Part shown: one piece after another, positions 7,907 through 41,820 of the stretch | How positions within the stretch are numbered: position 1 is the stretch's first letter | Layout of the letters: the number at the start of each line of letters is the position of its first letter | DNA from: a virus | Length of the DNA: 42,133 bases | IMG/VR virus record: IMGVR_UViG_3300042309_002892 | Span: 1 to 42,133 of that record | Strand: one strand, 5' to 3' | The notes under the pieces: generated by a model | Seen by the model: the letters and a program-made list of their open reading frames with translations, nothing else | Database searches by the model: none | What the model was told of the DNA's origin: nothing | Made by a program: the position numbers and the translations under genes

Positions 7907-8620
7907 ATGACCGACCTGCATGCCCTCCGCACGAAGCTGGACGCCCTGCGGCGCAAGACGGTGGAGAACGGCTGCACCGAGGCCGAGGCCGCCAGCGCTT
8001 CCGAGAAGATGGCCGAGATCCTGGCCAAGCACGGCCTGACCGAGGCCGATCTCGACAGGATGGAGATGACCGACCATCGCGAGACGGTCGCGAAGGCGCG
8101 GTCGCCGGTCGACCGGGTTTGGCTGACCGTGGGCGACTTCGCCCGGTGCGTCACCTATTTCCACACGCCCCGGCGCGGGAAGCGGTCAGCCGTCTATTTC
8201 GGCCGGGAGGTCGACGTGCTGGTCGCCGAGTATGTCCACGACGTGGTGGCGCGGGCCGTGGCCGCGGCTCGCAGCGCCTACAGGGCCTCGCCGGAGTTCC
8301 GGCGGCGACGACTGGCCAAGACCCGCGCGGCCGCAATGCGCGCCTTCGAGGACGGCCTGGCCGACCGTATCTGCGACAGTCTCCTGCGGGGCCTCTGGCG
8401 GCAGCAGGGCGGCACCGTCCAAGACATGCGCAATGCCGTCGTCCGCCGTCGCGAAGCGTTGATCGCCGTCCTGGGGGTCGACCTGGTTGGCCACGCCATC
8501 CCCGGTGCCAGACCAGGATATGACCGCGATCGGTGGAACGGCCAACGTGCCGGCGACAACCTGGTGGTCAACGCCGGCGTCGGCACGGCGACCGCGCCCG
8601 TAGCGGGGCTGCTGCGATGA
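7907..8620 (+). CDS. DUF2786-domain protein
   Basis: The 237-aa product begins with a DUF2786 domain (residues 4-50: LHALRTKLDALRRKTVENGC, ending AEILAKHGLTEADLD). The central part (about 75-160) matches the C-terminal region usually attached to DUF2786 in phage proteins. It contains an aromatic SAVYFGREVDVLVAEYVHDV segment and a very basic EFRRRRLAKTRAAAMRAFEDG segment. DUF2786 proteins are frequent in phage early operons, with no settled function. The basic segment hints at nucleic-acid contact. Confidence 0.85.
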   Translation: MTDLHALRTKLDALRRKTVENGCTEAEAASASEKMAEILAKHGLTEADLDRMEMTDHRETVAKARSPVDRVWLTVGDFARCVTYFHTPRRGKRSAVYFGREVDVLVAEYVHDVVARAVAAARSAYRASPEFRRRRLAKTRAAAMRAFEDGLADRICDSLLRGLWRQQGGTVQDMRNAVVRRREALIAVLGVDLVGHAIPGARPGYDRDRWNGQRAGDNLVVNAGVGTATAPVAGLLR

Positions 8621-8832: not shown

Positions 8833-9179
8833 CCGAGGACCAGCTGCAGCTACTCGGCCGGCTAACGAAGGACGAGCTGCTGATCGCCATCACGACGCTG
8901 GTGCCGTTCGTCGACGATCGGCGGGTGGGCAGCGCGGTCCTGGATGCATTGGACGCTCGCACTACACGCCTCCGGGCAGCCTGGCAGGAGGCGCGCGCGG
9001 CGTCGAATGCAGCCCACGACGCATGGCGCGCCCGCCCCGTGAGCAACCGGCTGAGGGCCGAGTACCACACCGCATCATCCGCCGCCGACCGAGCTTTCGA
9101 CGCCACCGAGCGGGCGCATCGCGAATGGCAGCGCGCCTTCGCCTTTGGCCACGCTCCGACCGAGGGAGAACCGACATGA
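8829..9179 (+). CDS. hypothetical helical early protein
   Basis: The 116-aa product is predicted to be all helical. An alanine/arginine-rich central region (RAAWQEARAASNAAHDAWRA) could form a coiled coil. It sits directly before the GemA gene with a four-base overlap. No family is recognised. Confidence 0.66.
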   Translation: MTEDQLQLLGRLTKDELLIAITTLVPFVDDRRVGSAVLDALDARTTRLRAAWQEARAASNAAHDAWRARPVSNRLRAEYHTASSAADRAFDATERAHREWQRAFAFGHAPTEGEPT

Positions 9180-9658
9180 CCGTCCGTCTCGCCACCGTCA
9201 ACTCGGCCAAGCCCGACAGGGCGATGCAGCTGCGCCGGACCGAGCTGGGGCTTATCCACAAGGGCGCGGCGAAGCTGAAGCTGACCGACGACAGCTATCG
9301 CGCCTTCCTGCGGAACCTGACGGGCAAGGAATCGTCCGCCAACATGTCCGGGGCCGAGCGTGGCGTGGTGATCGACCGCCTGCGCGAGCTGGGCGCGCTG
9401 GAGGCGCGGCAGACCTACAGGGCCAGCGTCGGCGGCGGCCAGGCGGGCATGGTGCGCGGCATGTGGGCCGAGCTGCGCCAGCTCGGCGCGCTGAAGGACG
9501 CGTCCGACGACGCGCTGGACGCATTCGTCCGCCGGCAGACCCGGGGCGACGTTGCTGCCGCCCGCTTCCTGCGCGAGCCGCACCAGGCCCGGCCGGTGAT
9601 CCAGGCGCTGAAGGACTGGATCGGCCGTGTGAAGGCCGGACAGGGGGACGCGGCATGA
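9176..9658 (+). CDS. GemA-like regulatory protein (DUF1018, Mu gp16 type)
   Basis: The 160-aa product matches the GemA/gp16 family of Mu-like phages. The signature is LGLIHKGAAKLKLTDDSYRA, then FLRNLTGKESSANMSGAERG at residues about 25-65, with a second conserved block at MVRGMWAELRQLGAL (about 97-111). In Mu, GemA modulates host gene expression and DNA topology. The start at 9176 is the ATG overlapping the preceding stop. It places the family signature at the expected distance from the N-terminus. Confidence 0.92.
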   Translation: MTVRLATVNSAKPDRAMQLRRTELGLIHKGAAKLKLTDDSYRAFLRNLTGKESSANMSGAERGVVIDRLRELGALEARQTYRASVGGGQAGMVRGMWAELRQLGALKDASDDALDAFVRRQTRGDVAAARFLREPHQARPVIQALKDWIGRVKAGQGDAA

Positions 9659-9924
9659 CGAAGGCCGAGCGAGAGGCCTTCTTCGACCAGGTGATCGCGC
9701 CCGAGCTGGGCCGGCTGGGCCAGCTGTGCGAGGAGCGCGGCATCTCGTTTCTGGCGATGGCGGAGTGGGCGCCTGGTAGCACAGCCCTGTCGCTGACCGC
9801 GCAGGCTGATCGCGGCGCCGCCATGCACTTGGCCATGTGGGCAGCGCGGTGCCGCGGCAACGCCGACGCCCTGATCGGCGAGATCGCCCGGCTGTGCCCG
9901 GCCGAAGGACAGACGGTCCAATGA
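9655..9924 (+). CDS. hypothetical early protein
   Basis: The 89-aa helical product follows the GemA-like gene with an ATGA overlap. The sequence (AEREAFFDQVIAPELGRLGQ, then EERGISFLAMAEW) looks like a compact helical domain with two conserved-looking cysteines near the end. No family is recognised. Confidence 0.66.
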   Translation: MTKAEREAFFDQVIAPELGRLGQLCEERGISFLAMAEWAPGSTALSLTAQADRGAAMHLAMWAARCRGNADALIGEIARLCPAEGQTVQ

Positions 9925-10121
9925 ATAGGCCGCTGCCCCATCCCCGCGAGCTGCGGGCCAACGGCACGCTGTGCAGCCGCTGCGGCGACCCGAAGCACGA
10001 CGTCTGCTACCGCGGCCGCCCGGCGCCCGGCCATCCCGAGCCCTGCCTGGCCTGCAGCACCAGCCTGCTGCGCCTGGAGCGTCTCCGCCGGGAACGCGAT
10101 GGAGAGCCGGACTATGCCTGA
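9921..10121 (+). CDS. small four-cysteine zinc-finger protein
   Basis: The 66-aa product contains CSRCGDPKHDVCY and EPCLACST, a CxxC...CxxC arrangement spanning about residues 18-45, followed by a very basic helix (SLLRLERLRRERDGE). The start overlaps the previous stop. It is probably a small zinc-binding nucleic-acid or RNA-polymerase contact protein; the role is unproven. Confidence 0.68.
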   Translation: MNRPLPHPRELRANGTLCSRCGDPKHDVCYRGRPAPGHPEPCLACSTSLLRLERLRRERDGEPDYA

Positions 10122-10374
10122 GATCACGGCGCCCGACATCTCGGCGCTGCTCGCCGGCGATCACGTCCAGCTGGTCGACCGGCTGGCCCAGGGCGTGATC
10201 CGGCACCCGCATTTCTACTGGTATTGGCGCCGCCTGCTGGTGCCGCTGGAGCAGGCCGGGCTGCTGCAGATCACCCCGGATCCGGATCCGAGGATCGGGC
10301 GGAAGCGGATCCACATCGCATGGACCGAGGCCGGGCGCGAGGCGCTGGCCGGAAAGGACGCGACCCATGGCTGA
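10114..10374 (+). CDS. small winged-helix-like protein
   Basis: The 86-aa product looks like a winged-helix unit: DISALLAGDHVQLVDRLAQG, then YWRRLLVPLEQAGLLQITPD as recognition helix and wing, and a C-terminal helix (TEAGREALAGK). The ATG at 10114 is preferred because GGAGAG lies about seven bases upstream; an in-frame ATG at 10099 is the alternative. It overlaps the next gene by eight bases. Confidence 0.65.
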   Translation: MPEITAPDISALLAGDHVQLVDRLAQGVIRHPHFYWYWRRLLVPLEQAGLLQITPDPDPRIGRKRIHIAWTEAGREALAGKDATHG

Positions 10375-11320
10375 GAACACCGGAATCGAGTGGGCCGACC
10401 ACACCTTCAACCCCTGGATCGGGTGCACGAAGGTCAGCCCCGCCTGCGACTTCTGCTACGCGGAGAACTTCGCCAAGCGGATCGGCCAAGCAGAGCTGTG
10501 GCAAGGCGAACGGCGGCTGACCGGGGATAGTAACTGGGCCCAGCCGCTGCGCTGGAACCGCAAGGCCGCGGCTGAGGGCCGGCGGTATCGGGTGTTCTGC
10601 GCGTCGTTGGCCGACGTGTTCGACAACCAAGTGCCGACAGCCTGGCGCGATCGGCTGTGGAAGCTGATCCACGACACCCCGCACCTGGACTGGCTGCTGT
10701 TGACCAAGCGGCCCCAGAACATCCGCAAGATGTTGCCGAGCACGAAGCACAACGGTGTCGCCTGGGGTCAGGGGTGGCCGAACGTCTGGCTCGGCACCAC
10801 CGTGGAGAACCAGGACGAGGCCGACCGCCGCATTCTGTGGCTGCTGGACATCCCGGCGCGCGTCCGGTTCCTCTCATGCGAGCCGCTGCTGGGCCCGGTC
10901 GACCTGACCCGGGTCATCTATCCGAAGTTCCGGCAGCAGCATGAGTATGATCCGTTCATCGCCTATGACGTGCTGCGCGGCCACATCATCGGCCCCGACG
11001 ACGTCGGCCAGGCCAAGATCGACTGGGTGATCTGCGGCGGCGAGAGTGGGCCGAAGGCACGGGCGATGCATCCGGACTGGTCCCGCGGCCTACGCGATCA
11101 GTGCCAGGCCGCCGGCGTGGCCTTCCTGTTCAAACAGCATGGCGAATGGATTGGGGTCCCCGATCTCCGCTTGCTCCCAGGAGGCTCCGGACCAGGGTTC
11201 GGCGATTTCGACCACGCCGGCTATGACGACGAGCACGAGGCGGTCCGCGTCGGCAAGAAGGCCGCCGGCCGGATGCTGGACGGCCGCACCTGGGACGAGT
11301 TCCCGAAGGTGGCCGCATGA
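10367..11320 (+). CDS. phage Gp37/Gp68 family protein (DUF5131), three-Cys motif
   Basis: The 317-aa product clearly belongs to the Gp37/Gp68 (DUF5131) family. The opening is IEWADHTFNPWIGCTKVSPA with C20, C27 and C30 in a C-x6-C-x2-C motif. Further blocks are DWLLLTKRP at about 108, VWLGTTVENQ at about 139, RFLSCEPLLGPVDL at about 166 and DWVICGGESGPKARAMHPDW at about 220. The fold and cysteine triad resemble iron-sulphur radical-SAM-like enzymes, but the reaction is not established. In other genomes such genes are often paired with a partner called TcmP, which is absent here. The next two genes (DUF4326 and a methyltransferase-like protein) overlap it and probably form one functional cassette. 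Confidence 0.9.
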   Translation: MAENTGIEWADHTFNPWIGCTKVSPACDFCYAENFAKRIGQAELWQGERRLTGDSNWAQPLRWNRKAAAEGRRYRVFCASLADVFDNQVPTAWRDRLWKLIHDTPHLDWLLLTKRPQNIRKMLPSTKHNGVAWGQGWPNVWLGTTVENQDEADRRILWLLDIPARVRFLSCEPLLGPVDLTRVIYPKFRQQHEYDPFIAYDVLRGHIIGPDDVGQAKIDWVICGGESGPKARAMHPDWSRGLRDQCQAAGVAFLFKQHGEWIGVPDLRLLPGGSGPGFGDFDHAGYDDEHEAVRVGKKAAGRMLDGRTWDEFPKVAA

Positions 11321-11691
11321 CTGGCCGCCCCAAGCGGATCCAGCTGCGTCGCACCCGGGGCTGGCGTCTTCCGCCCGGCACGGTGAAATGCGACCGCAGC
11401 ACCCGCTGGGGCAACCCGTGGCGGGTGACCTGGGATCCGGGGAACGGCTGGTGCGTCATCGATCCCGACTGGCTGGCCCAGCCCCGGCGCTACTTCTGCA
11501 AATCCCGCGAGAGTGCCCACCGGTTCGCCGTGCTGCGGTTTCGGCGCTGGTCGCGGTCGCCCCTGTCCTGGCCGGCCCGGCATGCGGCAGAGCTGCGCGG
11601 CCGCGACCTGGCCTGCTGGTGCGGCCCCGAGCTGCCCTGCCATGTCGACGTGCTGCTGGACCTGGCCAACGGGCCGGAGCGTGCGGCATGA
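11317..11691 (+). CDS. DUF4326 family protein
   Basis: The 124-aa product matches DUF4326. Typical features are RRTRGWRLPPGTVKCDRSTR and GNPW near the N-terminus, and a closing LRGRDLACWCGPELPCHVDV. The latter holds a CWC-x5-CH motif (C100, C102, C108, H109) that may bind metal. The biochemical role is unknown. It overlaps the Gp37/Gp68 gene upstream and the methyltransferase-like gene downstream by four bases each. Confidence 0.88.
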   Translation: MTGRPKRIQLRRTRGWRLPPGTVKCDRSTRWGNPWRVTWDPGNGWCVIDPDWLAQPRRYFCKSRESAHRFAVLRFRRWSRSPLSWPARHAAELRGRDLACWCGPELPCHVDVLLDLANGPERAA

Positions 11692-12314
11692 CCGGCCTGC
11701 TGTTCCCCGACCTGGTTCCGATGCTGCCGCCGGAGCGGCCGGCCCCGCGCTATGACCTGCGGAAGGAACCGCGCCGGCCACGGCATCGCGACGACTGGTA
11801 CTGCGAGCGGCCGCAGGCGGTGCTGAAGCTGCTGTTCGTCGAGCTGATCAAGGGGCCGGCGCTGGATCCGTGCTGCGGCCGCGGCAACATCCCGAAGATG
11901 CTCCGCGGCGCCGGGATCCAGTGCCTGGGGTCGGACATCCGCGACCGCGGCTTCGAAGGTGTGGTCGCCGACTTCCTGGACCCCGGCTTCAGGCTGCCGG
12001 CCGGCGTCAGGACCATCATGTACAACCCGCCCTTCCGCAACGCCCAGGCCTTCGTACAGCGGGCGCTGGGTCTCGGCGTCGACAAGGTCTGCGCCCTGCT
12101 GCCGTTGACCTTCCTGGAGGGCGGCAAGCGCTATCGCTGGTACATGGAGGGCGGCCTGGTCCGTGTGTGGGTGTTCTCGAGCCGCGAGAGCATGCCGCCG
12201 GGGGATCTCCTCGAGGCCGGCGAGATCGAGCCCGAAGGCGGCAAGAAAGCATTCGCCTGGTTCGTCTGGGAGCGCGGCTGGCGCGGCCCTTGGCAAGGGG
12301 GGTGGCTGCCGTGA
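11688..12314 (+). CDS. class I SAM-methyltransferase-like protein (NPPF type)
   Basis: The 208-aa product has an SAM-binding motif I (ALDPCCGRGNI, D60-G66), an acidic loop (GSDIRDRG) and the catalytic motif YNPPF (N113-F116) used by N6-adenine methyltransferases. A conserved LLPLTFLEGGKR follows. The small size leaves little room for a target-recognition domain, so specificity may come from a partner. In Mu the DNA-modification gene sits at the other end, so this position is unusual. DNA adenine methylation is the likeliest activity; a different methyl acceptor is possible. Confidence 0.82.
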   Translation: MTGLLFPDLVPMLPPERPAPRYDLRKEPRRPRHRDDWYCERPQAVLKLLFVELIKGPALDPCCGRGNIPKMLRGAGIQCLGSDIRDRGFEGVVADFLDPGFRLPAGVRTIMYNPPFRNAQAFVQRALGLGVDKVCALLPLTFLEGGKRYRWYMEGGLVRVWVFSSRESMPPGDLLEAGEIEPEGGKKAFAWFVWERGWRGPWQGGWLP

Positions 12315-12682
12315 CCGCAGGAGCCCCGAGGCCGCCGGCGCAGGTGCAACCGTATATCGAGATCATCGGGCTCGACGCTACGCTGGCGCTGGTGCAGGAG
12401 TTCGGCGGGGTGCGGGCCTATGTGGCGAAGGATCCGCCGGTCGACAGCAAGATGGTGAAGGCGATCGGCATGGCGGCGGCCGTGCGCCTCGGGAAGGCGC
12501 TGGGCGGGGAATCGCCGCGGATCCCGGTCGCCCGCGCCTGGCTGGTGCAGCACTATGCCAGCCTGAAATGGTCGGTGCCGCGCATCGCCCGCGAGCTGCG
12601 CATTGCCGATTTCTCCGTTCGTCGTATTCTGAGCCGGACGGCCACCACCAGGGCCGACCCCCGGCAAACCAGCCTGTTCTGA
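12311..12682 (+). CDS. Mor/C-like middle-late transcription activator
   Basis: The 123-aa product resembles the Mor/C family. Residues 14-50 form a helical dimerisation region (YIEIIGLDATLALVQEFGGV). A GGE-x4-IP strand motif (65-72) aligns with the GGG-x3-IP of Mu Mor. A C-terminal helix-turn-helix at about 80-110 (SLKWSVPRIARELRIADFSV) completes it. In Mu these proteins activate middle or late promoters, and here the gene is the last before the lysis operon. The GTG start overlaps the methyltransferase stop. Its own stop codon lies inside the first copy of the 31-bp palindromic element, which is a natural candidate binding site. Similarity is judged by eye and is moderate. Confidence 0.72.
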   Translation: MTAGAPRPPAQVQPYIEIIGLDATLALVQEFGGVRAYVAKDPPVDSKMVKAIGMAAAVRLGKALGGESPRIPVARAWLVQHYASLKWSVPRIARELRIADFSVRRILSRTATTRADPRQTSLF

Positions 12683-36487: not shown

Positions 36488-38851
36488 ATGGGTACGTTCG
36501 TCGTCGATATCGACCCAGCAGAGCTGCTGGACATGATCCTGGGCATCGCCAACGGGAATGGTGCCCTGATCGAACCACAGAAGCTGGCCGATCAGCTCCT
36601 CGGAACCGGTAGGGTGGCGCTGCCCGACGGGACGATGCCGACGCTGGAAGACGCCCTGGCCGACCTGAAGGTGCAGGTCGGGAACAACAAGCGTGGCGTG
36701 AAGACCATCGCCGAGCTGGCCACCCTCTCGCCAATGCCGCCCGACGGCTACCTGATCGACGTCACGGCCGATCCGGCGGACGTGGGCGGCAACATCAACG
36801 GGACCTATCAGCGCGACGCCACCGCACCGGCGGCGGGGCCTGTGCCGGCGGGCTGGTTCAGGACCGCGAACGGCCTGTCCGTCGTCAAGGCGGTGGCGGA
36901 CCTCGCCCTGGCCAAGGTTAACCCGCTTGCCGACGCCATCATTCCCGATTCGACGCTAGTGGTCTCCGGCGTGAACCTGATCCAGCGGTTCACCACGCCG
37001 ACGCCGGCCGGTCGCCGAGTGTCCGCGGGGATCACCGACGATTTCTTTCTCGCGCTGTTCAAGGGCCTCAAGGTCCTGGGGACGGGCGGCTTCACCATCG
37101 ACAAGAGTAATGATCCGGACGTCATTCTGCGGGTGAAGGGTGCGAATAACGGTCGGGTGATGCTGCAGCTGCACACTGATCCGGCTAAGACATTCGGGCC
37201 TTGGTCGAAATCGTCCTCATCTCTGTCGACCAACCCGCTCGGCGCCGACATCATCCACATCATCGTCTACGGCCAGAGCCCGGGCGAAGGGGCCGAGTCC
37301 CTGCCGGTGATGTCGACGGCGCCGACCGGCCACGCCGCCTATAAATTCGTCCGCGGCGTCCGGACCTTCAAGCTCGACGCCTATGCTCTGAACCCCACCG
37401 CGCGCCCCGTCAGCGACTTCGCCCTGACGCCGCTCTTCGAGGCACAGGACGGGTCGGTGGGCGAGACGATCGCCACGGCCAGCGCCGCCACCCTGAAGGA
37501 GTTCGTCTGCGGCCCCAACAGCCCCGTCGCCCGCACCGCCGCGCCGCAGATCCTGGTCACCTTCGCCGGCCGCGGCGGCCGCTTCCTGGATGAGCTGTCC
37601 AAAGTGCCGGTCCAGCCGGACGGTCAGGGCGCCTACTACGACACCACCATCGACGATGTCCGCCGGGCGAAGCAATATGCGGTGACGCAGGGTAAGAGCT
37701 ATGCGGTCGCCGGCATCGTCTGGATGCAGGGCGAGGCAAACAACGCCCTGCAGATGGTGCGCGGTGGTCCGACCCTGGACTATGCCGACTTCCTGGCCCA
37801 GTACCAGGCGTCGCTGCTCACCTTGGCCGACAACCTGGACGCCGACATCCGGGCGATCACGCTGCAGCCTGGGCGCATCCCGTTCCTGACCTATCAGACC
37901 GGTGCGCTGTCCGGCGGCGCCGCCTCCGGCCAAGCCCAGCTCAACGCGGCGGCGGCGCAGCCGAACAAGATTCAGATGCTTGGCCCGACCTACTTCGTGC
38001 CGTCCGCCAAAAACGGCAGCTATGTCTCAGGCGGCAGCACCGTCCATGGGAATGAGGTACACCTGTCCGCGGATGGCGAGCGGTGGTTCGGCTCCAATGT
38101 CGGCAAGCTGCTGTACCGGTTTCTGGTCCAGCGCCAGGCGAACCTCGCGTTGCGGCCGATTATGGCGCGGAAGCTCGACGTCCGGACGATCGAGCTGGTG
38201 CTGTCGGTTCCCCGGTCGCCGGTCAGGATCGACACCAACCTGCTACCGGCCCAGGGCGGAGCGGCCATGGGCTTCGCCATCTTCTACGGCACCGGCACCA
38301 GCACGACCGCCGGGCCGGCCATCACCTCGGTAACGGTGGTCGACGTCGATCGGCTGCAGATCAAGCTGGCGGCCGATCTCTCGGCCGGGACCGTGACGCT
38401 GGCATATGGTCAGTCCCGTCTTGTCGGCAACCTGTCGGCCGCCGTGGTCGACTGGCGCGATGGCGCCACACTGCCGAACGGCAATCCCAGCAAGGAGTTG
38501 GTCTTCAGCGGATCCATCACCTCACAGGTCGCGAAGCTGCTGGAGGAAGGCTGCTTCTTCGTCAACAACGTGACCCTGGGTGTGGAGAAGGCATGGGTGG
38601 CACGCTCCGTCTCCGAATCCGGCGGCCAGACCATCTTCAAGGGCGAGGCGTCGGATGTCTCCGGCAGCGGCTTCGCCGCCGGGAACACTGTCTCGGTCAG
38701 CCGGCCCACCGCCTATGGCTACGGCAACATCTGCGACGCCGACACGGCCGAAGGCGCTCTATCCTTCGCCGACCATAGCTATGGCACGCGCACCGGCCGG
38801 TATCCGCTGGCCAATTGGCTCACCGTCTTCAAGGACCTTGTCGTCATCTAA
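36488..38851 (+). CDS. tail fibre/spike with SGNH (SASA-type) carbohydrate esterase
   Basis: The 787-aa product carries an SGNH-hydrolase domain of the sialate O-acetylesterase (SASA) type in its middle. S264 is in YGQSPGEG, the oxyanion/WMQGEAN block is at 412-418 (E416), and H525 is in EVHLSADGERWFG. Such domains remove acetyl groups from surface polysaccharide. The N-terminal ~250 residues look like a tail-attachment region and the C-terminal ~250 are beta-rich. AGGAGGGG sits just before the ATG. With the acetyltransferase at 39983 it suggests an acetylated receptor. The esterase motif is clear; substrate is inferred. Confidence 0.85.
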   Translation: MGTFVVDIDPAELLDMILGIANGNGALIEPQKLADQLLGTGRVALPDGTMPTLEDALADLKVQVGNNKRGVKTIAELATLSPMPPDGYLIDVTADPADVGGNINGTYQRDATAPAAGPVPAGWFRTANGLSVVKAVADLALAKVNPLADAIIPDSTLVVSGVNLIQRFTTPTPAGRRVSAGITDDFFLALFKGLKVLGTGGFTIDKSNDPDVILRVKGANNGRVMLQLHTDPAKTFGPWSKSSSSLSTNPLGADIIHIIVYGQSPGEGAESLPVMSTAPTGHAAYKFVRGVRTFKLDAYALNPTARPVSDFALTPLFEAQDGSVGETIATASAATLKEFVCGPNSPVARTAAPQILVTFAGRGGRFLDELSKVPVQPDGQGAYYDTTIDDVRRAKQYAVTQGKSYAVAGIVWMQGEANNALQMVRGGPTLDYADFLAQYQASLLTLADNLDADIRAITLQPGRIPFLTYQTGALSGGAASGQAQLNAAAAQPNKIQMLGPTYFVPSAKNGSYVSGGSTVHGNEVHLSADGERWFGSNVGKLLYRFLVQRQANLALRPIMARKLDVRTIELVLSVPRSPVRIDTNLLPAQGGAAMGFAIFYGTGTSTTAGPAITSVTVVDVDRLQIKLAADLSAGTVTLAYGQSRLVGNLSAAVVDWRDGATLPNGNPSKELVFSGSITSQVAKLLEEGCFFVNNVTLGVEKAWVARSVSESGGQTIFKGEASDVSGSGFAAGNTVSVSRPTAYGYGNICDADTAEGALSFADHSYGTRTGRYPLANWLTVFKDLVVI

Positions 38852-39982: not shown

Positions 39983-40522
39983 TTGAGCCTTTTGCGATCG
40001 GTCCTCCGCTCGTCGCCGGTCCGCGCTGTCACCCTGGGCATCATGAAGGCCGGCCAGGCTGTCGGACGCGTGGCAAGCGCCGCGAGAGCGGCAGCGCTGT
40101 TTCCGGGAGCGCCGGATTGCTTCTGCCATTGGTCCGCGGAGGTCAAGTATCCGGGGCGAGTGCAGCTCGGCCGGGGCGTCATCATTGGGCCGCGGTGCAC
40201 CATCGGAGCCGCCTCGCCGGTCGTGCTGGGCGATCACGTGCATCTCTCAAAGGGCGTCTATGTTGAGACCGCTGGCCTCGACTTCTCTGCCCCGTTGCCC
40301 TACCCGCACATCCACCGACCGATCACGATCGGCGATGGCGTCTGGATCGGGGCCGAAGCTATCATCCTGGGCGGTGTGACGATCGGCGCCGGCTCGATCG
40401 TGGGCGCCGGCGCCGTGGTCAGCAAGGACGTCCCGCCGCGGTCAATCGTGATCGGGTCACCATCGAGGGTCCGCGATCGCGGCGCGCCGCCAGAGGCCCA
40501 TGGACGGCTGCGCAGCGTCTAG
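39983..40522 (+). CDS. left-handed beta-helix O-acetyltransferase (WbbJ-like)
   Basis: The 179-aa product contains the hexapeptide-repeat beta-helix of acyltransferases: repeated IGxxxx units (GRGVIIGPRCTIGAASPVVL, DGVWIGAEAIILGGVTIGAG). The end, SIVGAGAVVSKDVPPRSIVI followed by GSPSRV, is the usual family signature. H101 or nearby His residues in YPHIHRPITIGDG are candidates for catalysis. Such enzymes acetylate O-antigen or other surface sugars. A TTG at 39983 is the best start. It lies outside the structural genes and next to a polymerase-like gene on the other strand, which points to lysogenic conversion. Confidence 0.85.
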   Translation: MSLLRSVLRSSPVRAVTLGIMKAGQAVGRVASAARAAALFPGAPDCFCHWSAEVKYPGRVQLGRGVIIGPRCTIGAASPVVLGDHVHLSKGVYVETAGLDFSAPLPYPHIHRPITIGDGVWIGAEAIILGGVTIGAGSIVGAGAVVSKDVPPRSIVIGSPSRVRDRGAPPEAHGRLRSV

Positions 40523-41820
40523 GCGGCCTCGCCGACCGGTGCCGCGACCTGGCGGCGCCTGGTGACGACGACGCCCACCCACAGCGCGACGAAGGCCAGG
40601 TTGTAGAAGACGCCGTACGCGCTCTGTATGGCGTTGATCACGACGGCAGAGGCCACCTGCATCACGAAGCAGATGTAGAGAGGCAGGGCGGCGACTTCCC
40701 CCAGCAGGACCCGCCGTCTTGTCCACGAGATCAGGGCGCCGAAGGCGACGCAGAAGACCGGAACAAAGGGGCCGAAGTCGACGTAGAGAGGTCCGAACAG
40801 GGTGGTGTAAATGCCCGGCCTCGGCGTCACCATAAGGGCGGCGTTGCCATCGAATGGGACACCCCAAAGGGTATATCCGAGTCGCGCGAACACGGTGAAG
40901 GTGTAGCTTCCGTACTGCAATCCGTTGTTATAATGCTCGACCAAATAGGAGAATTCCGGAACGCCGTGCGTGTAGTACTGGATGAACGTCGTGATGATGA
41001 AGAGCGTGTCCCTACCCCAGATCGAGAGCGTCGCTCGGATGTTGAAGTACTCTTGGGTGACGGGGGCGAGGTGGGTGAAGGCGGAAAGCTTGATGACGTT
41101 CTCGACCCTTAGTCCGATGTCTTCCAACCGCGCGATGAACAGCAGGCCGCCGACATAGACGAGGCCGAGGACCAGCAACCCGCAGAACGCAACGATCAGC
41201 TTCGACGTGCGCGGGAAGATGATGAACCGGGACAGGACCAGCATCCCGAGGCTCATGAACATGCTGGACCTGGAACCGATGACGATGGTCAGGAGCGGCC
41301 ACAAGGTCGCCAGGCCGATGCTCTTCCAGGACGACCCGACCCGCAGGCCGTTCCGCTTCGCCACGGCCTGCATCATGTAGGGCACCAGGCAGAAGGGAAC
41401 CAGGACGCTCGACAGCATCGACAAGGCGTTGGAACCGGCGGATTCGATCTTCTCCCGGTTCTGCATGAACTCGGTATCGATGGTGAGGCCGCGGAGGAAA
41501 ACCCAATCGGCCAGCCGCATGGCGACGCCAAGCGCCGCCAGGATGAAGGTGATCTCGTAGAGCTGTCGCAGTGTCCGCTGCATTTCGTCGCGATCGACGA
41601 CCACCGCCGGCCGATGCCGAGGCTCGAACAGCGCTAGCCCGAGCAGCAGACCCGAGAAGCACAGGCCGAGCAGCAGGTAGGGATAGTCGGAGCTGGCTGC
41701 ATAGAGCTGGATCGGAGCGAGCAGATAGAAGGCGATCCAGATCAGGCACGCCGCTCCGATCGCCTTCATCGGGGTGATCGACCGCTGGTTGATGACGCTG
41801 AAGTCGGAAAGCAGGGGCAT
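40519..41820 (-). CDS. O-antigen polymerase-like (Wzy/oligosaccharide repeat-unit polymerase) membrane protein
   Basis: The 433-aa product has about ten or more membrane spans and a large loop between about 250 and 360. Examples are MKAIGAACLIWIAFYLLAPI, YLLLGLCFSGLLLGLALF and LIVAFCGLLVLGLVYVGGLL. The topology, low sequence conservation and large outward loop (THLAPVTQEYFNIRATLSIW to LVEHYNNGLQYG) fit O-antigen/repeat-unit polymerases. It is on the opposite strand to the phage genes and overlaps the acetyltransferase tail to tail by four bases. The DNA is visibly richer in A/T than the phage core, which suggests separate acquisition. Serotype change is the inferred effect. Confidence 0.82.
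   Translation of the reverse strand: MPLLSDFSVINQRSITPMKAIGAACLIWIAFYLLAPIQLYAASSDYPYLLLGLCFSGLLLGLALFEPRHRPAVVVDRDEMQRTLRQLYEITFILAALGVAMRLADWVFLRGLTIDTEFMQNREKIESAGSNALSMLSSVLVPFCLVPYMMQAVAKRNGLRVGSSWKSIGLATLWPLLTIVIGSRSSMFMSLGMLVLSRFIIFPRTSKLIVAFCGLLVLGLVYVGGLLFIARLEDIGLRVENVIKLSAFTHLAPVTQEYFNIRATLSIWGRDTLFIITTFIQYYTHGVPEFSYLVEHYNNGLQYGSYTFTVFARLGYTLWGVPFDGNAALMVTPRPGIYTTLFGPLYVDFGPFVPVFCVAFGALISWTRRRVLLGEVAALPLYICFVMQVASAVVINAIQSAYGVFYNLAFVALWVGVVVTRRRQVAAPVGEAA

Follow-up and report, generated by a model that had tools for sequence, protein, structure and literature searches.

Locus and gene content

The window analysed here is an IMG/VR virus record of 42,133 bases, taken over its whole length. 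It starts with a Mu-type transposase (phrog_310, 5e-143) followed by an AAA ATPase, and it encodes a GemA homologue and a Mor-like activator further along (Table 1). Because all three Mu hallmarks (transposase, GemA, and Mor-like activator) are present, the carrier of the cassette is, judging from its gene content, a Mu-like transposable phage. The cassette sits between GemA and Mor, in an early accessory slot of this phage that also contains a few small genes. Two of these precede the DUF5131 gene, and their forms with earlier starts retrieved no Pfam family above the cut-off and no PHROG match. For the Mor-like gene, the gene caller preferred an alternative start at 12344.

Table 1. Features of the GemA-Mor slot and of the adjoining and downstream phage genes (all positions refer to the window)
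Feature	Position	Strand	Evidence and remarks
GemA (Mu gp16) homologue	9176-9658	+	PF06252 2.1e-24; left border of the slot
Small gene between GemA region and DUF5131	9921-10121	+	gene call
Small gene between GemA region and DUF5131	10114-10374	+	gene call
DUF5131 (Gp37/Gp68), 317 aa, predicted radical-SAM fold, CX6CX2C, 'FCASLAD' type	10367-11320	+	PF07505 3.8e-92
DUF4326, 124 aa, CWC-x5-CH motif	11317-11691	+	PF14216 E 7.4e-19
Class I SAM methyltransferase, 208 aa, solitary	11688-12314	+	phrog_799 DNA methyltransferase 1.1e-45
Mor/C-like late transcription activator	12311-12682	+	phrog_836 late transcriptional activator 5e-25 (12311-12679); right border of the slot
N-acetylmuramidase	from 12760		Pfam search
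Mu-like head protein	from 21352		

The Pfam and PHROG matches agree with the preliminary description on the three genes and their names: DUF5131 (Gp37/Gp68), DUF4326, and an NPPF methyltransferase. That description had also taken the four-base overlap at each junction of the cassette as tight coupling and, from there, as a sign of one pathway. This argument fails, since an exact four-base overlap is found at 20 of the 51 junctions in the gene call of the window and an overlap of any length at 31. Thus, the overlaps are a habit of this phage rather than a special coupling of these genes, and any coupling must rest on comparative evidence. A GTGA overlap at 12311, read from the sequence, can extend the chain from the methyltransferase into the Mor-like gene.

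The early region of the phage also encodes a DUF7168/DUF2786 protein (7907-8620). A relative lies in the GemA-Mor slot of another locus (L198), with DUF5131 on one side and a methyltransferase on the other.

Fold and family of the DUF5131 protein

The three cysteines of the cluster motif (C20-x6-C27-x2-C30) are invariant in an alignment of 68 sequences, and the CX6CX2C spacing is present in 79 of 81 DUF5131 sequences. At the family level, the window protein weakly matched NCBIfam TIGR04471 rSAM_mob_pairA (2.6e-11). At the structural level, its AlphaFold2 (AF2) model (pLDDT 90.2, pTM 0.90) retrieved spore photoproduct lyase (SPL) as the best PDB match (Foldseek E 5e-4), and the VIA comparison with SPL 4rh0 gave Z 13.0 and rmsd 3.4 over 211 residues. 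The next VIA matches were RlmN (Z 9.9), viperin-like enzymes, and lipoyl synthase; all of them are radical-SAM proteins, with top Z scores from 13.0 to 8. At the profile level, hhalign of a 179-sequence DUF5131 profile against a mixed SPL/SplB profile gave Prob 93 and E 3e-7 over residues 11-152, with the cysteine motifs aligned; a first comparison with close SPLs alone had covered the CxxC stretch only, and SplB-like sequences had to be added. Searched by sequence against the PDB, the DUF5131 profile found no chain. Altogether, the fold, profile, and family evidence makes DUF5131 very probably a radical-SAM enzyme, which upholds the resemblance to Fe-S/radical-SAM enzymes proposed earlier for this protein. 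None of the papers searched names DUF5131.

DUF5131 and the SPL and SplB-like proteins share the radical-SAM barrel and a three-cysteine cluster motif in the same place, SPL being the nearest solved fold. However, the motif is CX3CX2C in SPL, and the column of the SPL hydrogen-donor cysteine, at the end of barrel strand 2, holds a serine (S80) in DUF5131. Since the cluster spacing differs and the donor column has a serine, DUF5131 is, as far as its sequence indicates, not a spore photoproduct lyase proper. It also differs in context, which here is that of a phage accessory gene without sporulation.

The conserved C78 lies two residues upstream of the donor column, in a region where the profile alignment is not beyond doubt. 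It was considered as the counterpart of the SPL hydrogen donor and dropped, given the serine in that column and the fact that C78 is specific to the FCASLAD type and missing in the FVNSMSD type (both described below).

These comparisons bear on the possibility that DUF5131 directly reverses a lesion in phage DNA, such as a thymine photoproduct, in an SPL-like manner. The clear margin by which SPL is the closest solved fold speaks in favor of such a repair role. Nevertheless, the altered cluster spacing, S80 in the donor column with a type-specific cysteine nearby, and the company of methyltransferase and ASCH-type genes, which suits modification better, render it very improbable.

SPL acts on DNA bases and RlmN on RNA bases, but viperin and lipoyl synthase act on neither nucleic acid; therefore, the fold matches do not show the substrate of DUF5131. 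By analogy with its base-acting relatives, we consider a nucleic acid to be its probable substrate, and the nucleobase would be the part acted upon.

DUF4326 and the NPPF methyltransferase

The DUF4326 protein of the window scored 68.6 bits against a Pfam gathering cut-off of 25. Across 77 sequences, R7, R12, R27, N33, C100, C102, and C108 are invariant, and the histidine of the motif is nearly so. Its AF2 model (pLDDT 92.9) gave no convincing fold match in the PDB and VIA searches (best Z 3.1), and its BFVD matches were DUF4326 proteins and one annotated NADAR-phosphatase fusion. Previous studies assigned DUF4326 to the rhodanese-phosphatase superfamily, reported SLOG, Macro, and NADAR fusions, and predicted that it acts on ADPr phosphates (PMC9503650, PMC7824862), placing it between NAD/ADPr signalling and DNA modification or restriction-modification systems (PMC7824862, PMC9503650). 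This prediction is compatible both with a joint modification module and with genes acting independently; for DUF4326 itself, NADAR or ADP-ribose chemistry is a rival only.

The same domain is found in mycobacteriophages, Gordonia phages, and large DNA viruses, sometimes directly downstream of DUF5131 (Shweta, Squirty). In those viruses it mostly lies beside an FVNSMSD-type DUF5131, whereas in the window it lies beside the FCASLAD type.

The methyltransferase matched no Pfam family. Its motif IV, (D/N)PP(Y/F), is present as YNPPF at residues 112-116, and NPP is invariant in a six-sequence alignment. This motif points to an enzyme of the N6-adenine/N4-cytosine type, presumably methylating DNA. 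The gene belongs to the orphan phage DNA methyltransferases (phrog_799) and differs from them in its link to a DUF5131 gene. When viral contigs were scanned with the single sequences of the DUF4326 protein and the methyltransferase of the window, no relatives were retrieved.

DUF5131 types and the TcmP systems

We distinguished two DUF5131 types. FCASLAD is found in the window and in most phage-type loci, and FVNSMSD accounts for each of the five TcmP-paired copies tested and for many phage copies linked to DUF4326. In PADLOC, the window protein matched PDC-M41B (1e-57) and PDC-M30B (3e-56), that is, the B component of candidate defence systems in which TcmP is component A. The TcmP proteins next to chromosomal DUF5131 copies matched PDC-M30A/M41A. 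The cassette differs from these candidate pairs in being phage-borne, in its FCASLAD type, and in having no TcmP beside DUF5131, where the neighbors are DUF4326, the methyltransferase, and small genes with no TcmP match.

Among 40 genomes with a phage-type DUF5131, TcmP scored over the cut-off in five, each time beside a second, different DUF5131 copy, and a TcmP-type match was present in only two of 160 phage-type loci. TcmP adjoins another, chromosomal copy and was ruled out as a missing partner. The earlier remark that TcmP is absent was accurate, but the suggestion that the methyltransferase takes its place was not: TcmP pairs with a different, chromosomal DUF5131 branch, and therefore nothing is missing from the cassette, its absence being a matter of type and not of replacement.

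The same matches raise the possibility that the phage gene is the orphan half of such a system. The B component of PDC-M30/M41 would mark self nucleic acid, TcmP would attack what is unmarked, and a solo B gene on a phage would mark the phage itself. This would agree with the PADLOC matches of both components, with the scarcity of TcmP in phage-type loci, and with the solo methyltransferases that accompany solo DUF5131 genes; phages keep orphan methyltransferases, which offers a parallel. On the other hand, the phage type and the TcmP-paired type differ, so their marks may differ too, and the PDC systems are themselves candidates (one TcmP copy has a GMT-like wHTH and no Pfam nuclease). We regard this explanation as unlikely.

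Recurrent neighbors of DUF5131

A DUF5131 gene lies within about 6 kb (12-kb locus) in 19 of 80 viral DUF4326 loci, against 160 of 50,697 phage records with DUF5131 anywhere (BLAST with the window protein); the two figures come from different methods and serve as a rough yardstick only. Unless a tree is named, the locus counts in this section and the next do not correct for relatedness. On the DUF5131 tree, the pairing with DUF4326 requires 13 changes for nearby genes and six for overlapping pairs, and both the FCASLAD and the FVNSMSD types pair with DUF4326. Because of this, we consider that the pairing recurs and was not inherited once.

ASCH-type proteins are the other frequent company. Counting up to four genes away from DUF5131, we found them in 28 of 80 viral and 26 of 80 genomic loci, compared with one of 66 DUF4326 loci without DUF5131, a control that consists largely of actinophages. 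Phage DUF5131 genes neighbor ASCH proteins more often than TcmP. The main neighbor cluster ('KTQTRR') is provisionally identified as ASCH, Pfam ASCH being matched by five of its 32 members, all weakly (best E 0.0013). In Rhizobium phage RHph_N28_2, an ASCH annotation was deposited for the gene directly downstream of DUF5131. ASCH proteins are a link to modified-base readers, and we thus counted them toward a modification role of DUF5131. The window itself yielded no ASCH-like gene. Three Mu-like phages (L345, L358, and L367) carry ASCH-type proteins in the GemA-Mor slot with no DUF5131 there.

The exact trio is another matter. Within four genes of DUF5131, DUF4326 occurs in three of 80 viral loci and a recognised methyltransferase in 15 of 80, and most loci have neither. 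A P0003-type methyltransferase was present in none of the 80 viral DUF4326 loci, and the three genes side by side were repeated in no other locus among those fetched. The genome of the isolated Rhizobium phage vB_RleM_PPF1 encodes DUF5131, with DUF4326 three genes beyond it, as well as an ASCH-like protein and methyltransferases of the P0003 and C5 types. Regarding co-occurrence in other phages, proposed earlier as a check, DUF5131 recurs with DUF4326 and, in Mu-like slots, with a methyltransferase, and PPF1 has all three, but the adjacent trio does not recur.

GemA-Mor slots of other Mu-like phages

We collected 80 Mu-like loci by DUF3164 alignment, irrespective of DUF5131, and their GemA-Mor slots were mostly empty or small. 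In other Mu-like lineages, all four DUF5131-bearing slots contained a DNA methyltransferase, compared with a recognised one in three of 66 Mu-like slots without DUF5131 (Fisher 3.8e-5) and in one of 11 such slots with at least three genes (Fisher 0.0037); four lineages are few, and three of them were found only through DUF5131 searches. The methyltransferases were of two unrelated types: P0003-type (L198, L209) and MT-A70 (L174, L175/L014). The right border of the L198 slot is Mor-like by iterated profile only. A single clade of Mu-slot DUF5131 proteins was rejected (AU test p 1.2e-4).

Taken as pairs, the three genes keep company beyond chance neighborhood, and their union in a single pathway is a proposal.

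A competing explanation is that they are independent early morons that the slot merely collects: an orphan methyltransferase against restriction, a DUF4326 protein engaged in NAD/ADP-ribose counter-signalling, and DUF5131 as a radical-SAM enzyme with a separate task. Accessory slots do gather unrelated morons, which counts against a joint module, and most gene junctions of this phage overlap anyway. Moreover, of the loci fetched, the window alone has all three genes side by side. DUF4326 is also found apart from DUF5131, for example in a Mu-like phage (L347) whose GemA-Mor slot holds DUF4326 but no DUF5131 and no recognised methyltransferase, and its rhodanese-phosphatase placement with predicted action on ADPr phosphates would suit such a role (PMC9503650, PMC7824862). 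Against independence, the adjacency of DUF5131 and DUF4326 arises repeatedly on the tree, and DUF5131 recurs with a DNA methyltransferase across Mu-like lineages that do not form one clade. We take the independence of the three genes as a serious possibility, although not a probable one.

Proposed function

Our preferred reading, held tentatively and at a little under an even chance, is that the cassette works as an early module that modifies nucleic acid or counters restriction through radical-SAM chemistry, acting on phage DNA in a joint protective role. The general idea of nucleic-acid modification from an early accessory slot, already present in the preliminary description, was supported. 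Overall, its radical-SAM identity, gene co-occurrence, and modification idea stood, while its overlap argument and the replacement of TcmP did not.

In such a module, the NPPF methyltransferase would methylate the exocyclic amine of a base in phage DNA, most likely adenine N6 as suggested by its motif. DUF5131 would bind a [4Fe-4S] cluster through C20, C27, and C30 and reduce SAM there, and the 5'-deoxyadenosyl radical would then alter a nucleobase, by a chemistry modelled on the base-acting relatives SPL (DNA) and RlmN (RNA). More speculatively, DUF4326 could act on the product or on a nucleotide precursor in one small step, by hydrolysis, in a phosphatase-like manner, or as a sulfur relay. 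The benefit would be phage nucleic acid that host restriction fails to recognize; action of all three proteins on the same base is speculative.

A stricter version would be a two-stage DNA hypermodification, in which adenine N6 is methylated, DUF5131 functionalises the base by radical-SAM chemistry, and DUF4326 finishes the product. We think this improbable. If true, radical-SAM chemistry would serve to mask DNA, paralleling Mu's mom by an unrelated route, and the scheme would hint at the role of the B half of PDC-M30/M41.

Among transposable phages, Mu has its own optional function in mom (and com), and mom is a GNAT-fold enzyme encoded at the right end. The cassette is likewise optional and may modify phage DNA. 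However, it consists of a putative radical-SAM enzyme and a methyltransferase, among others, and lies in the early GemA-Mor slot.

DUF5131 occurs in phages, prophages, and candidate defence pairs. Its radical-SAM identity, together with its ties to DUF4326, ASCH, and slot methyltransferases, turns into a testable question whether these enzymes make a radical-SAM mark on phage nucleic acid. A companion question is whether TcmP systems read such a mark. PPF1, an isolated phage with the whole gene set, makes testing practical.

Other genes of the phage

Apart from the cassette, the phage encodes a hexapeptide-repeat transferase (40043-40522, + strand; PF00132 1.8e-16) beside its tail end; the opposite strand encodes a 433-aa protein that matched no Pfam family (40519-41820, - strand). 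This pair is possibly surface-modifying, in a lysogenic conversion role. Finally, a 787-aa protein (36488-38851) follows a 1453-aa tail-region protein and weakly matches SASA (sialic-acid-type acetylesterase, 6e-4); it is possibly a tail enzyme acting on a receptor or capsule.
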